Virus record (IMG/VR): IMGVR_UViG_3300017527_000130
Coordinates: 1 to 42,460 of that record
Reading direction: 5' to 3' (one strand)
Source: a virus
DNA length: 42,460 bases
Below are positions 11,771-21,491 of the stretch, in pieces. Both the position numbers and the translations under genes were made by a program. The first letter of the stretch is position 1. Each line of letters opens with the position of its first letter. The notes beneath the pieces are model-generated. The model saw nothing but the letters and a program-made list of their open reading frames with translations, was not told the origin of the DNA and did no database searches.

Positions 11771-12471
11771 CATATATTGCATTCTCAGGTGGTAAAGATA
11801 GTACAGCACTAGCGCTTCTTATGCCGGATGCAATACCAGTATTCACCGATACCGGCGCAGAGTTTCCAGAACTATACGCCCACATTGATAAGTTTGAACG
11901 CGTAACAGGTCGAGTTGTATTTCGAATTAAAAGCCATCTGGGCAGTCTCCTGGATTATATCAAGTCAAGTAAGTTTATGCCTGGACACCGGGCGCGTTAC
12001 TGTACCGTAAAATTCAAGATACAACCATTCGAGAAATTGACCAGCGAGTACGCGGTTGCATTGCGAGCGGATGAAAATAGAATAGGCAACAGCAACGGCA
12101 AGGTTTGGTATCCGCTTCAAGATATGGGAATTGACCTGATAGAAGTTGTTCGTATTTGTCTTGAACATGACCTGTTGCCCCGTTATCCCGTTTACATGGC
12201 TCGCGGCGGGTGCGTGAACTGCTTCTATAAGCGCCGCTCAGAAGTTCAAGCCATGCACGAGTTGATACCCGACACGCTGGATGAATTACAAGACATTGAA
12301 GAATATGTGCAAGATGAGCGCGGCAAGTATGCGCTGATGTTCCCGAATGCAGGCAGGTCAATTCGTGACTTGCGCAGGCAAACTACAATGTTCAAGCCGG
12401 AAGACGTATATCGAGACGCCAGTAATACCAGCGATTACGGCACGAACTGTGGATTGTTCTGTAATAGATAA
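11767..12471 (+). CDS. PAPS-reductase-like N-type ATP pyrophosphatase
   Basis: A 234-residue member of the adenine-nucleotide alpha-hydrolase/PAPS reductase superfamily. SGGKDS (7-12) is the PP-loop, followed by PVFTDTGAEFPE and HRARYCTVKFKIQPFEKL. A Cys cluster near residue 150 (GGCVNCFYKRR) and another at the C-terminus (NCGLFC) could hold an Fe-S cluster or act in sulfur relay. Phage members of this group are usually uncharacterised. Possible roles include sulfonucleotide reduction and thiolation of nucleic acid. The phage also encodes a sulfotransferase (35013-35645), so a link to sulfur donors is possible. Confidence 0.75.
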   Translation: MTYIAFSGGKDSTALALLMPDAIPVFTDTGAEFPELYAHIDKFERVTGRVVFRIKSHLGSLLDYIKSSKFMPGHRARYCTVKFKIQPFEKLTSEYAVALRADENRIGNSNGKVWYPLQDMGIDLIEVVRICLEHDLLPRYPVYMARGGCVNCFYKRRSEVQAMHELIPDTLDELQDIEEYVQDERGKYALMFPNAGRSIRDLRRQTTMFKPEDVYRDASNTSDYGTNCGLFCNR

Positions 12472-12484
12472 CCTGTGGTATAAT
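12454..12484 (+). promoter_or_regulatory. Promoter of the 12603 leader
   Basis: A perfect -10 TATAAT (12479-12484) inside TGTGGTATAAT, with a weak -35 TTGTTC (12454-12459) at 19-bp spacing. The 11-mer TGTGGTAWAAT recurs at the promoter of the HNH leader (20938-20948). Transcription would start at about 12490, at the first arm of the structured leader. Confidence 0.55.
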
Positions 12485-12488
12485 GATA

Positions 12489-12585
12489 TTGCCTAGAACA
12501 ATCCTAACGATTAGGCACAAACGCCCGTTAGTCACAAAGGTTGTTCTAGGCAAATAACCTAATCAGTGATTGGCGGGCGTTTGTG
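12489..12585 (+). promoter_or_regulatory. Structured leader RNA 1 (interleaved stems A-B-C-A'-B'-C')
   Basis: Three complementary pairs are interleaved rather than nested. A TTGCCTAGAACAA (12489-12501) pairs perfectly with A' 12541-12553. B GATTAGG (12509-12515) pairs with B' CCTAATC (12558-12564). C CACAAACGCCCG (12516-12527) pairs perfectly with C' 12574-12585 and can be extended inward with wobbles. C lies inside the A-A' loop, so the fold would be a pseudoknot or a pair of alternative hairpins. B can alternatively close a local CCTAA/TTAGG hairpin. The ATG at 12603 follows C' by 17 nt, with a TGGAG ribosome-binding site in that gap. Confidence 0.65.
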
Positions 12586-12602
12586 TTATATGGAGCAACA
12601 CC

Positions 12603-12860
12603 ATGCGAAAACGAAAGAGCATCACCGACACCGTAAGCCCGGCCATCCTGAAGCGGGCGACGCAATCCCGAAAAGAATACAATGCCCACCTGGACGCCCT
12701 TCGTGAAAGTGGATACACCATCAAGGCGTTGAAGGGCAACCGCACCGACGGGGTCCAGGTCGACGTAAAGGTCGGCGCGGGTATCTCGATTGAGACGGCC
12801 ACGCTGATGACTGAGGCGGCGGATATTATAAGTCAAGTGGAGGGATTGCAGGATGGCTAA
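12603..12860 (+). CDS. Hypothetical protein preceding the replication initiator
   Basis: An 85-residue basic-to-acidic helical protein (MRKRKSITDT start). The ATG at 12603 is chosen for its TGGAG ribosome-binding site and its position behind the structured leader; a longer reading would extend into the leader stems. It overlaps the initiator gene by 8 nt, so it may share a role in replication. No family recognised. Confidence 0.6.
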   Translation: MRKRKSITDTVSPAILKRATQSRKEYNAHLDALRESGYTIKALKGNRTDGVQVDVKVGAGISIETATLMTEAADIISQVEGLQDG

Positions 12861-13542
12861 GGGAAGGATGATAAACTCAAAGATAACACTCGACAAAAAA
12901 GTACACGACCTATCATGCGACACTAGCCGACTTGCGTTTACCTGGCTGGTATCATTTGCAGATGTTGAAGGACGCACCCCAGGCGACCCGGCTATTGTCA
13001 AGTCACTAATATTCCCACGCCGCGCTGATGTATCAGCCGAACAAATAGAAACCTACATAAACGAATGGGCGGTGGCTGGACTGATATTATGGTATGAAGC
13101 CGAAGATGATTTATGGATACAATTCCCTAAATTTGACGACAACCAAAAAGGGCTGCGGAAAGACCGCGAAGCGCCCTCCAATATACCCGCGCCACAACTC
13201 CGGAGTGACTCCGGACAAACTCCGGAGCAAGTCCCGGTTAACAGAACAGAACAGAAAAGAACAGAACAAGTCGCCGCTATCAATTCCCACTACCAAAACA
13301 ACATACAAATGCTAACACCCCACATGGCTGACGTTCTGGCGCTTGCTTGTGAGGACTACCCGCACGACTGGATTATTGAGGCGATTGATATTTCAGTTGA
13401 ACGCAATGCAAGGAACTGGCGCTATGCTGAGGGCATTCTGAAGAACTGGAAACAAGATGGAAAGAATGCCGGAAAGAAAAGCGACACCATGACCACCGTC
13501 GAGCGCATGAAGGCGGCGGGGTACGGTGATGCCCGTGAATGA
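12853..13542 (+). CDS. DnaD-like replication initiator / helicase-loading protein
   Basis: A 229-residue protein with two domains. Residues ~1-105 resemble the winged-helix N-terminus of phage replisome organisers (SRLAFTWLVSFADVEGRTPGDP, then KSLIFPRRADVSAEQIETYI). Residues ~145-210 resemble the DnaD/DnaB_2 domain, ending in the signature WRYAEGILKNW. The linker between them (~105-140) is Gln/Thr/Pro-rich and its DNA carries direct repeats (see 13197-13270). It lies upstream of the DnaB-type helicase, consistent with loading that helicase at the origin. Confidence 0.75.
   Translation: MAKGRMINSKITLDKKVHDLSCDTSRLAFTWLVSFADVEGRTPGDPAIVKSLIFPRRADVSAEQIETYINEWAVAGLILWYEAEDDLWIQFPKFDDNQKGLRKDREAPSNIPAPQLRSDSGQTPEQVPVNRTEQKRTEQVAAINSHYQNNIQMLTPHMADVLALACEDYPHDWIIEAIDISVERNARNWRYAEGILKNWKQDGKNAGKKSDTMTTVERMKAAGYGDARE
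13197..13270 (+). other. Candidate replication origin inside the initiator gene
   Basis: ACTCCGGA occurs at 13197, 13208 and 13219, exactly 11 bp apart, with a degenerate fourth copy (AGTCCCGG) at 13230. The period is not a multiple of three, so the repetition is not driven by the protein. Immediately downstream (13239-13270) is an A-rich tract of repeated AGAAC units suitable for unwinding. Iterons followed by an A-rich tract in the linker region of the initiator gene is the arrangement of the lambda origin in gene O and of origins in several Gram-positive phages. Confidence 0.6.
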
Positions 13543-16402: not shown

Positions 16403-16674
16403 GAGCTGACCGACGTGACATCAACGAACGCAAGATAGTAGAATACTGGAGGGCACTTGGTAACGAATGGATACCGGCGAAGCCCGGCCAGGGTTACGAT
16501 GGGCTGCTCATTACCCGGCTGGACGTTCATATTGTCGAGATAAAGAACCCCCAGCGTAAGTGGAAGCTGACCGACTGCGAGAAGCGAACGAAGGAAATCG
16601 TCGAGCGGCTGGGTCAGAAGTACAACATTGTCGAGACGATGGAAGATGCGGAATATATGGCGGGTGTGATATGA
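16399..16674 (+). CDS. Small PD-(D/E)xK-like nuclease candidate
   Basis: A 91-residue protein with the spacing of a minimal PD-(D/E)xK nuclease: Glu10 in the first helix, Asp34 in GYDGLL and Glu47-x-Lys49 in VHIVEIK. Size and composition resemble VRR-NUC or Holliday-resolvase-like phage proteins. It overlaps the DNA methyltransferase start by 4 nt, so it may act in recombination or in a modification/cleavage pair with the methyltransferase. Confidence 0.6.
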   Translation: MRADRRDINERKIVEYWRALGNEWIPAKPGQGYDGLLITRLDVHIVEIKNPQRKWKLTDCEKRTKEIVERLGQKYNIVETMEDAEYMAGVI

Positions 16675-17918
16675 ACTCCCACCTGATGAACGGCGACGTA
16701 ATGCAGATCCCGCTATCTGATAAGTCGGTACACTGTATCGTCACATCGCCCCCGTATTGGGGACTTAGGAGCTATTTGACCGGCGATAACAAGTCGCTCG
16801 AACTCGGCTCCGAACCCCTGCACGATTGCGGCGGCTGGGTGACGGGTGACGACTGCGGCGAGTGCTTCGTGTGCCACGTTCGGCAGTATGCGCGGGAACT
16901 CTGGCGTGTGCTGCGGGACGATGGGGTGTGGTGGCTTAATCTAGGCGATAGTTACAATGCAAATCAAGGTATCGGTTTCAAGCCGGATGGCGGCAGGAAC
17001 ATAGCTGCACCAATTGGAATGAAACCCCCGAAGGTTCCCGGCCTCAAGCCGAAAGACCTCTGCGGCATACCCTGGCGGGTGGCGCTGGCGCTGCAGGCGG
17101 ACGGGTGGTACTTGCGAAGTGATATCATCTGGGCGAAACCCAACCCGATGCCCGAAAGCGTCACCGACCGCCCCACGAAGGCGCATGAGTACCTTTTCCT
17201 GCTGAGCAAGAATAAGAAGTATTTCTATGATGCGGATGCGGTGAGGGAGTCTCAAAGCGAAGGAACATTTAAGCGATTCGGCGGAAACAACGCACCACGC
17301 AAGCCGGGAGTAAAGCAGGGCGGAAGCGCAAGGAAAACAAGACAGTTTGACGAATCGACACCGGTTGCGATATTACCCTCCGGCCGCAACCGACGAACCG
17401 TCTGGAACATCGCCACCGCCCCCTACAGCGGCGCGCACTTCGCCACCTTCCCGCCCAAGCTGGTCGAGCCCTGCATCAAGGCGGGCACGTCCGAACACGG
17501 CTGCTGCCCTGAGTGCGGGAAGCAGTGGGTGAGGGTGGTGGAAAGTAAAATAACGGCGGGCGGTGGCGGGAAACCGCTAAAGACCTATGACAGCAAGTCA
17601 ATGCTAGGCAGCATGAATAATAAAAAGTCGTTCATACCAGGCCACAAACACGTTACCACCCTCGGCTTCCGCCCCGACTGCGACCACGGGCACGACCCCA
17701 TACCCTGTACCGTCTTCGACCCCTTCAGCGGAAGCGGCACCACCGTACTGGTCGCCAACCAACTCGGCAGGCGCGGCGTCGGGCTGGACCTATCGTTGGA
17801 CTACATCGACCTTGCGAAGAAGCGCACCGGGCTGACGGCGCTGGCGGAGTGGGAGAACGGGATTGACGCGACGGCCGAGGTTGACCTGGGGCCGATGTTT
17901 GCGGAGGTGGACGGTTGA
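16671..17918 (+). CDS. N4/N6 DNA methyltransferase
   Basis: A 415-residue amino-methyltransferase of the class in which the catalytic motif precedes the SAM motif: TSPPYW (25-30; the SPPY form is common in N4-cytosine enzymes) and FDPFSGSGTT (349-358). A CCPECGK zinc-knuckle insertion lies between them. ATG 16671 is chosen because it overlaps the previous gene by 4 nt; a longer frame upstream lacks support. It is coupled by 4 nt to the nuclease-like gene at 17915. Confidence 0.85.
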   Translation: MNSHLMNGDVMQIPLSDKSVHCIVTSPPYWGLRSYLTGDNKSLELGSEPLHDCGGWVTGDDCGECFVCHVRQYARELWRVLRDDGVWWLNLGDSYNANQGIGFKPDGGRNIAAPIGMKPPKVPGLKPKDLCGIPWRVALALQADGWYLRSDIIWAKPNPMPESVTDRPTKAHEYLFLLSKNKKYFYDADAVRESQSEGTFKRFGGNNAPRKPGVKQGGSARKTRQFDESTPVAILPSGRNRRTVWNIATAPYSGAHFATFPPKLVEPCIKAGTSEHGCCPECGKQWVRVVESKITAGGGGKPLKTYDSKSMLGSMNNKKSFIPGHKHVTTLGFRPDCDHGHDPIPCTVFDPFSGSGTTVLVANQLGRRGVGLDLSLDYIDLAKKRTGLTALAEWENGIDATAEVDLGPMFAEVDG

Positions 17919-18442
17919 TAGAAATAGACGTAACGCAAGAAATAATCAAAGATGCAAACATTCGCAACGAACATTACAAAAAAATGTTTGGGAATAAAGG
18001 CACTCACAGAAAAGACAAGCATAGACAAAGAATGACCGGATACTTATCAGAGGCGTCTATTATAAAAACATTTCCGCACCTATCGTATAGTGTCGAGCCT
18101 TCTGTAGATTTTACTTATGGAAAATTCACAATAGACTCGAAGGCGCAAGGCTGCAATTCTTTCCCTCTCCCGCATTACAGCGCGACTATCTACGAAGAGC
18201 AAAAAGAAAGGCCCGTAGATTTTTATATATTCAGCAGGGTCAAGAATGACCAAAGTAAGGTCTGGATATGTGGCATTATATCCAAGAAGGATTTTTTCTC
18301 TTGGTCTGAACTGATACCCCGTGGAACACAAAACAATAACTTCACATACGACCAAGCCAGATACGAAATAAAATACTCACAACTTTACGATATAAACAAC
18401 TTCTTCGATAAGTTGACCTTCTTTGTAGACAGAGTATGGTAA
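17915..18442 (+). CDS. Restriction-endonuclease-like protein (PD-(D/E)xK candidate)
   Basis: A 175-residue protein starting at TTG 17915 with a strong GGAGGTGG ribosome-binding site and a 4-nt overlap with the methyltransferase. Residues Glu46, Asp65 (SVDFTYGKFTID) and Asp74-S-Lys76 match a D...(D/E)xK active site, followed by a strand DFYIFSRVKN. The gene is markedly more A/T-rich than the methyltransferase and the downstream regulator, which suggests separate acquisition. Coupling to a methyltransferase makes a restriction-modification pair possible; a general phage nuclease is the alternative. Confidence 0.55.
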   Translation: MIEIDVTQEIIKDANIRNEHYKKMFGNKGTHRKDKHRQRMTGYLSEASIIKTFPHLSYSVEPSVDFTYGKFTIDSKAQGCNSFPLPHYSATIYEEQKERPVDFYIFSRVKNDQSKVWICGIISKKDFFSWSELIPRGTQNNNFTYDQARYEIKYSQLYDINNFFDKLTFFVDRVW

Positions 18443-20919: not shown

Positions 20920-20948
20920 TTGCAAAATGGGAGGGGGTGTGGTAAAAT
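20920..20948 (+). promoter_or_regulatory. Promoter of the HNH leader
   Basis: TTGCAA (20920-20925), 17-bp spacer, TAAAAT (20943-20948) within TGTGGTAAAAT, nearly the same -10 context as the promoter of leader 1. Confidence 0.55.
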
Positions 20949-20952
20949 ATAT

Positions 20953-21047
20953 TTGATTAGGAGATGCAGACAATGATGAATAAAGAACCGCTTTCTACGC
21001 TGTACTCCTAATCAAGTGCATCATTTGTAGATAGCGGTTTTTTATTT
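20953..21047 (+). promoter_or_regulatory. Structured leader RNA 2 (interleaved stems A-B-C-A'-B'-C')
   Basis: A TTGATTAGGAG (20953-20963) pairs perfectly with A' 21005-21015. B AATGATG (20972-20978) pairs with B' CATCATT (21019-21025). C AACCGCTTTCTAC (20986-20998) pairs with C' 21027-21039 at 12 of 13 positions. The order is the same as in leader 1, with A starting 5 nt after the -10 box and C' ending 17 nt before the start codon in both. Sequences are different, so the topology, not the sequence, is conserved. Confidence 0.65.
20978..21047 (+). terminator. Intrinsic terminator / attenuator in the HNH leader
   Basis: The C-C' stem of leader 2 (20986-20998 with 21027-21039) is directly followed by a T-rich tract (21038-21047), and upstream A residues lengthen the pairing. 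The HNH start codon is only 10 nt further, so termination here would silence that gene. Confidence 0.55.
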
Positions 21048-21056
21048 GGAGTTGAG

Positions 21057-21491
21057 ATGAAGACATGCAATAGATGTAAGAAACAAAAAAGCGTAAATGA
21101 TTTCTGGAATAATAGAAGTCAACATGATGGATTGCAAAGTTGGTGTAAGCAATGCATGACCGAAACCAGGGATATATATAAACCAAGTCCAGAACAAATA
21201 AGAAAATATCGCGAGCGGATAAGCCCAGAACAAAGGACTAAATATAATAACACAGAAGGCTCAAAAGCATCGCGTGAAAAATGGAGAAAAAACAACCAAC
21301 ACAAAGCAACAGCATATAAGAGTGTTTTTAGGGCGATAAAACGTGGCGACATTCCAAGAGCACAAACTCAAGAATGCTATCATTGCAGGGATGTAGTCGC
21401 CTCTCATTACCATCACCCCGATTATAAACGCCCTTTATTGGTTGTCCCATTATGCAGAAAATGTCATGCAAAAGAACACGCTAATGAATAG
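21057..21491 (+). CDS. HNH endonuclease
   Basis: A 144-residue free-standing HNH nuclease. The N-terminal zinc motif is C4-x2-C7 with C30-x2-C33. The C-terminal HNH core has C107-x2-C110, the SHYHHPDY segment (His119/His120), and LCRKCHAKEH (C133, C136, H137, H141). This arrangement is usual in homing-type HNH proteins of phages. It is A/T-rich relative to neighbours, lies behind its own promoter and attenuator, and has a TTTGGAG ribosome-binding site, all consistent with a mobile, separately regulated gene. Confidence 0.85.
   Translation: MKTCNRCKKQKSVNDFWNNRSQHDGLQSWCKQCMTETRDIYKPSPEQIRKYRERISPEQRTKYNNTEGSKASREKWRKNNQHKATAYKSVFRAIKRGDIPRAQTQECYHCRDVVASHYHHPDYKRPLLVVPLCRKCHAKEHANE

Follow-up and report, generated by a model that had tools for sequence, protein, structure and literature searches.

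How is a small free-standing HNH endonuclease gene restrained in a phage? To our knowledge, this is largely unknown outside T4-like phages. The question arises at a 144-aa HNH gene on a viral contig of 42,460 nucleotides (IMG/VR record IMGVR_UViG_3300017527_000130, positions 1 to 42,460), the whole of which is referred to here as the window. A reading made from the DNA letters only (the sequence-only reading) had described, directly before this gene and again before an 85-aa gene, a promoter followed by three pairs of complementary segments in the interleaved order A-B-C-A'-B'-C'. Do these segments recur by more than chance, what do they accompany, and what could they do?

Two leaders of one topology in the window

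Leader 1 spans positions 12474-12603, with its arms at 12489-12585, and leader 2 spans 20938-21057 (Table 1). A check against the sequence bore out all arms and coordinates described earlier for both leaders, and in both A begins 5 nt after the -10 hexamer and C' ends 17 nt before the ATG. The promoter of leader 2 is a sigma-70-like match (TTGCAA, 17 nt, TAAAAT, with TG), from whose -10 the predicted +1 is G20955, within arm A. Two details were refined. The 13-nt pairing given for helix C (12 of 13 positions) stands, but the helix is actually 20 nt long. B and B' had been placed directly before C and C'; B does abut C, but B' ends 1 nt before C' in both leaders. The resulting layouts, A13-7-B7-0-C20-5-A'13-4-B'7-1-C'20 for leader 1 and A11-8-B7-0-C20-6-A'11-3-B'7-1-C'20 for leader 2, are almost superposable. 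A and C share no bases and C-C' crosses A-A'; C-C' encloses A' and B' and adjoins the Shine-Dalgarno site. In leader 2, the TTTTTTATT end of C' also pairs with AATAAAG of C. The HNH protein behind leader 2 had no Pfam match at 0.001, and the protein behind leader 1 had no relative in viral_contigs.

Table 1. Features of the two window leaders and the genes that follow them
Feature	Positions	Strand	Basis or partner
Leader 1 promoter, TGTGGTATAAT	12474-12484	+	sequence
Leader 1 arm A	12489-12501	+	pairs with 12541-12553
Leader 1 arm B	12509-12515	+	pairs with 12558-12564; p = 0.002 by shuffling
Leader 1 arm C	12516-12535	+	pairs with 12566-12585 at 17/20
Leader 1 arm A'	12541-12553	+	pairs with A
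Leader 1 arm B'	12558-12564	+	pairs with B
Leader 1 arm C', then TTATAT	12566-12585	+	pairs with C
85-aa gene, function not assigned	12603-12860	+	after leader 1; overlaps DnaD/DnaB_2-like initiator gene
Leader 2 extended -10 promoter, TGTGGTAAAAT	20938-20948	+	sequence; sigma-70-like match
Leader 2 arm A, TTGATTAGGAG	20953-20963	+	pairs with A', 11/11
Leader 2 arm B, AATGATG	20972-20978	+	pairs with B', 7/7; p = 0.007 by shuffling
Leader 2 arm C, full 20 nt	20979-20998	+	pairs with 21027-21046 at 18/20
Leader 2 inner part of C, AACCGCTTTCTAC	20986-20998	+	pairs with 21027-21039 at 12/13
Leader 2 arm A', CTCCTAATCAA	21005-21015	+	pairs with A
Leader 2 arm B', CATCATT	21019-21025	+	pairs with B
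Leader 2 arm C'	21027-21046	+	terminator-like 3' end, TTTTTTATT
Leader 2 inner part of C', GTAGATAGCGGTT	21027-21039	+	pairs with 20986-20998 at 12/13
Shine-Dalgarno site, GGAG	21048-21051	+	immediately 3' of leader 2 C'
HNH endonuclease gene, 144 aa	21057-21491	+	PHROG 2340 endonuclease, 1.1e-24

The sequence-only reading had also proposed that the two leaders pair with one another through GATTAGG/CCTAATC. We found no support for this, and the other phages show no sign of pairing between leaders. The shared 7-mer is expected, because helix A often starts with GNYTAGG across leaders. A different pairing involves the DNA just upstream of the leader 1 promoter, where 12451-12460 (GGATTGTTCT) is complementary to 12495-12504 (AGAACAATCC) in helix A and repeats part of A' (TTGTTCT..ATAACCT at +86/87). 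Judged by this complementarity, A could be sequestered in any transcript that enters the leader from upstream; the 10-bp pairing is suggestive in leader 1 (p = 0.02) and not clear in other leaders. Leader 2 holds a small ORF, MMNKEPLSTLYS (20973-21011), with an AGGAG site; its ribosome site lies inside A and its stop codon inside A'.

Interleaved pairing far exceeds chance

A shuffled-sequence test had been named beforehand as the means to refute the interleaving. We ran this test, and shuffled DNA did not reproduce the leaders. When the whole window was scanned for exact stems in A-B-C-A'-B'-C' order, at least 22 pairs were reached at the two leaders only (32 and 25), and the best result from 24 dinucleotide shuffles of the window was 22 pairs. 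Local shuffling of each leader never reached the observed crossing score (0/400), with 33.4 against a shuffle maximum of 19.6 for one window leader and 29.5 against 18.7 for the other. The 7-bp helix B, given A and C, had p values of ∼0.002 in leader 1 and ∼0.007 in leader 2, and B was individually unlikely by chance in four leaders (p = 0.002-0.007). Across 3.87 Mb of fetched loci, a score of at least 24 was obtained 24 times in real DNA (with redundant loci), essentially always from the leader family described below, and not once in shuffled DNA. A looser scan that allowed longer spans was noisier, giving 9 shuffled matches of at least 24 and one of at least 30. The interleaved leaders are therefore correctly described and lie far above chance.

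Twelve leaders in metagenomic phages

Members were sought in viral contigs first and then in the whole source phages. Both window leaders contain TGTGGTAWAATNNNNTTGNYTAG, and a search of IMG/VR with this pattern returned the loci L024, L035 and L038, plus unrelated matches. All three have the same crossing order, each directly 5' of a different endonuclease-like gene. A looser pattern search added L142 and a leader present at L058, L070 and L131 (counted as one, as were L035 and L048). Member phages available in full or almost so were then scanned again for crossing stems, irrespective of promoter and gene. This rescan added L383, the second leader of the L038 phage, whose -10 is TAGAAT and not TGTGG, and L389, the second leader of the L142 phage. 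A third leader of the L142 phage, L388, was found via an HNH gene whose annotated start had hidden it; with A of 15, B of 9 and C of ∼18-21 bp it is the best match of the wider scan. Two leaders of L399, at 13131 and 16010 (minus strand; L399a and L399b), were recognised among TGTGGTAWAAT sites (W = A/T) in member phages. The pattern searches of viruses were promoter-biased and the crossing-stem rescans were not, and several members were found independently of promoter or gene.

Together with the window pair, these make 12 distinct leaders with the crossing order. The interleaved topology with unlike sequences, first described for two leaders, was confirmed and now extends to all 12, as does the placement of helix A behind a promoter at the predicted transcript start, and the argument from covariation is in effect supported on this wider basis. 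By sequence, the potential for all three crossing helices is present in both window leaders, L024, L035, L038, L383, L388 and L399a. All members are metagenomic contigs. In the 60-kb record G012 (L397, L399), one region matches the L035 phage exactly and another resembles that phage at ∼86%; the record may be a composite or contain a duplication. Similar but weaker loci (L134, L152, L299, L308 and L107/L130) were left out of the count.

Other searches marked the bounds of the family. Neither a promoter relaxed upstream of GGTAWAAT nor a TGTGGTAWAATNNNNTTGNYTAG scan of 85,000 bacterial and archaeal genomes yielded a new member; the matches from both were short hairpin-terminator units or due to chance. 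No match was obtained by blastn of leader plus gene from four members against annotated phages, nor any clear member around HNH or similar genes in eight annotated phage records; the score of 18.0 for Vibrio phage K389 (L415:8941-9023) is close to that expected by chance, and no cultured-phage member was found. Homologues of the HNH protein (14 loci, one being a 100% identical fragment of the same phage), of the initiator and of PAPS-reductase-like proteins yielded no further leader, bar a weaker interleaved locus, L016. There, 1231-1321 directly precedes a DnaD-like initiator gene related to window 12853-13542 and contains the interleaved segments TTTATC-GGGGAGCGCGG / GATAAA-AAC-CCGCGCTCCCC; it also has a CTCCTTT with the potential to pair with the Shine-Dalgarno site. 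The TGTGGTAWAATNNNNTTGNYTAG start also opens short promoter-hairpin-terminator units in Firmicutes phages and genomes (L027, L034, L036, L164, L176, L210, L226 and others), one neighbour of which carries the Listeria sRNA rli28. Several background scan matches came from a palindrome, ACGGCCGT, repeated many times in phage G007 (L387, L389).

Leaders precede mainly HNH endonuclease genes

The sequence-only reading had described the topology; what is added here is the link to HNH genes, the constant distance from A' to C' and the improbable coexistence of full-length B and C. Nine of the 12 leaders precede HNH or putative homing-endonuclease genes. Eight of these genes are HNH (behind leader 2, L035, L038, L142, L383, L388, L389 and L399b), the calls for leader 2 and L399b resting on PHROG 2340 and on motif, respectively, and neither on Pfam. 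The ninth, at L024, is a zinc-finger gene resembling a phage endonuclease; Pfam gives DUF4379 only, and the endonuclease reading comes from motif recognition and from relatives annotated as endonucleases. The remaining three leaders precede non-endonuclease genes. Those of leader 1 and L399a are short and have no assigned function, and that of L058 encodes a DUF4352 protein.

In five phages that were read fully or nearly so, a motif census (with a Pfam check where possible) gave nine clear HNH genes, and all nine carry a leader. A 94-aa candidate in L387 is not a Pfam HNH protein and has no leader, and the HNH genes examined in unrelated annotated phages were likewise without one. An HNH-specific RNA antitoxin was rejected as an explanation, since different protein families share the leader type. 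Two other genes of the L038 phage have a TGTGGTATAAT promoter: a LAGLIDADG-like gene (L386, minus strand 16564-17052), with a short hairpin around its ribosome site, and a tmRNA-like gene (17674-17970).

Members share spacing and ends, with little conserved sequence

The 11-mer TGTGGTAWAAT occurs in 9/12 leaders and as variants in the rest; beyond the promoter and the first bases of A, no sequence is conserved among leaders. Helix A opens at a G seven bases past the -10, the predicted +1, and by this offset A lies at the predicted +1 in nine leaders. The first pair is G-C at this position in all seven tabulated members, in which all 63 helix A cells are paired and 5/9 pairs show 3-4 pair types. 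The spacing between A' and C' was 10, 10, 12, 12, 12, 13, 13, 13, 14 and 14 nt in 10 of 11 tabulated leaders; the outliers are L399b (0) and L388 (8, by scan). Where present, B lies 4-7 nt after A'.

The 3' end is also shared. A T tract and possible terminator had been noted at C' of leader 2. The tract is real and termination there is plausible, but this would not be peculiar to this leader, as a T-rich C' end is general. The 12 nt around the C' end contain 5-8 T in members. As a control, 515 Shine-Dalgarno sites of other genes in these phages have a mean of 2.8 T in the preceding 12 nt, and 2.7% of them have at least 7. In leader 1, L035 and L058 the T tracts are interrupted. A simple terminator scan does not call C-C' of leader 2, because it allows loops of 3-8 nt while A' and B' occupy the loop.

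Related copies show how the helices are maintained. In related phages, L035 and L399a sit at one and the same locus behind an SSB-like gene. The outer parts of the two leaders can be aligned; their helices have diverged yet still pair, which is true covariation. The leader at L058 is practically identical to that at L070/L131 over ∼130 nt, with DUF4352 genes behind that differ widely; the coding sequence thus differs strongly behind a near-identical leader, and therefore the leader is constrained or was recently exchanged. The leader family is well supported: one topology recurs with unrelated sequences, anchored at +1 relative to the -10, with constant spacing, a T-rich end and HNH genes behind.

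A proposed ordered switch between helices A and C

RNAs of increasing length from ten leaders were folded with an equilibrium, pseudoknot-free model, which is silent on rates. In these equilibrium folds, helix A stood at 0.94-1.00 in all ten until half of C' was exposed, and C replaced A in nine of ten once C' or the next bases emerged. L058 preferred A at every length, and L383 returned to A at the last length. With a polymerase footprint of 14 nt, the whole of A' has emerged once the polymerase has moved 0-4 nt into C'. Given this spacer, A-A' would form first. B directly adjoins C, as B' does C', so both helices would be hard to hold together at full length. On topological grounds, the 20-bp C-C' helix could not wind with A-A' closed and its 3' end held by the polymerase, unless A-A' opens.

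We propose that these leaders are a cis-acting family before phage HNH-type endonuclease genes that works as an ordered A-then-C switch, or kinetic attenuator, a reading whose chances of being right or wrong we consider evenly balanced. Each leader would have its own extended -10 promoter, with RNA starting at the first base of helix A. A-A' would fold as A' leaves the polymerase, and the 10-14 nt spacer, about the RNA held inside RNA polymerase, would let it do so before C' exists; B-B' may add to this fold. Full pairing of C with C' would then require A (and B) to be displaced, or the strand to thread as a pseudoknot. If the exchange were faster than the passage of the polymerase over the T tract, transcription would end; in leaders such as L388, in which the ribosome site and C' overlap, translation initiation would be blocked. 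With slow exchange, the endonuclease gene would be read through. The leader would in this way limit or time endonuclease expression. The start site, the competition between helices, termination and what sets the balance are what we infer. Ribosome-sensing attenuation was rejected as a general mechanism: there is a small ORF in leader 2 and a 38-codon one in L035, and none in most members.

A broader generalisation is possible but more tentative. The leaders could represent an RNA class recognisable by its topology and spacing only, its letters being almost unconserved. Its two or three mutually crossing helices, anchored where the transcript begins, would lock a terminator topologically and form a portable controller of mobile HNH genes. 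By staying closed, the A-A' loop would keep C', still tethered to RNA polymerase, from being wound around C.

Alternative explanations

The main rival to the ordered switch, which we consider rather unlikely, is a static, compact ABCABC pseudotrefoil at the mRNA 5' end that guards against 5' decay or binds a protein, with no switching. Such a fold would account for helix A starting at the predicted +1 in nearly all members and for the conservation of three helices together in most. The 10-14 nt linkers could span helix A, the conflict between A and C is topological only, with no common bases, and the topology is known among solved or curated RNAs (PMC3390330). Several features fit it poorly. 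Judged by geometry, a B of 7 bp would not easily fit beside a C of 18-20 bp, a protector has no need of a T-rich C' end, and the loop sequences are unconserved, unlike an expected protein or ligand site.

Two further readings are improbable. The first is a stable small RNA of ∼95-130 nt that ends at the C-C' terminator and acts in trans, with endonuclease expressed via leak-through. The 5'-terminal stem and terminator-like 3' end are consistent with this, as are the Firmicutes promoter-hairpin-terminator units with the same TGTGGTAWAATNNNNTTGNYTAG start, but the leaders share no sequence, nearly everything in them is paired, and they always lie immediately 5' of a Shine-Dalgarno site and gene. 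The second, given no better a chance, is control in the T4 style, with the ribosome site hidden in read-through transcripts and free in those from the internal promoter, which is a known mode for I-TevI, segB and mobE (PMC2988022). Upstream or leader RNA pairs notably with the ribosome site in L142 (p = 0.003) and at a borderline level in L024, L038 and L152, but such pairing does not reach significance in the two window leaders, nor in the majority of members, so sequestration of the ribosome site was rejected as a general mechanism; the promoter, moreover, lies outside helix A here, not inside.

Least probable is a DNA-level element (operator, endonuclease binding site or cruciform): inverted segments do adjoin the promoter, and an operator allows I-TevI to repress its own promoter (PMC2988022), but arm sequences are unrelated between members, complementarity starts at the predicted transcript start, and the promoter and Shine-Dalgarno site point to one functional strand.

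Relation to known systems

In T4-like phages, RNA hairpins hide the ribosome site of homing endonucleases in upstream transcripts, and late promoters and operators also contribute; T4 mobE has a weak terminator inside the gene, and in seg43 of Aeromonas phage 25 a stable hairpin adjoins the ribosome site without hiding it (PMC2988022). The leaders resemble I-TevI, segB, Aeh1 mobE and seg43 in that structured RNA directly 5' of a phage homing endonuclease limits or times expression, which is proposed for the present case. The T4-like element consists of a single nested hairpin, masks the ribosome site in transcripts from upstream and has a late promoter within or beside it, whereas here two or three crossing helices extend from the promoter's own predicted +1 and ribosome-site pairing is not general. 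By this comparison, the purpose may match T4-like hairpin control while the structure differs.

Attenuators and riboswitch platforms likewise combine a promoter, alternative helices and a terminator-like helix 5' of a gene. Their competing helices normally share bases, whereas A and C have no base in common and their conflict comes from crossing; unlike riboswitches, these leaders have no conserved aptamer, and they have no general leader peptide. The ABCABC order is a recognised topological class, the pseudotrefoil, with 51 catalogued sequences of mean length 74 nt (PMC3390330). The arc order is identical, but here the helices reach up to 20 bp, are probably not all formed together and are free in sequence. 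HEARO and the IscB omega RNA are also structured RNAs beside an HNH gene; in contrast, the present leaders have no Rfam match and no sequence conservation, and their HNH proteins are short. At the gathering score, none of the 4227 Rfam families matched the window or the leaders of L024, L035 and L038.

A literature search of incomplete coverage found no published description of such leaders, and we provisionally regard them as a new leader type, possibly a previously undescribed RNA switch for HNH mobile endonucleases. In five environmental phages, each clear HNH gene comes with a promoter of its own and a leader RNA of this one topology. Should the leader prove to be a switch with crossing helices that share no bases, it is a new way to build an attenuator. 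The family also marks a blind spot: covariance models cannot hold crossing helices (none was built here for this reason) and sequence searches fail. Such topology-defined leaders would escape sequence-based and nested-structure searches and may be widespread. A simple crossing-stem scan found the leaders at a near-zero false-positive level in 3.9 Mb. At one further locus, L274:38-142, crossing stems surround a pair of TAAATA boxes that resemble late promoters, and the ORF behind them starts with MKKYFYVYYSYEEYGRGYIGKR and is GIY-YIG-like by sequence; this is perhaps a T4-like counterpart of the crossing-stem leader.
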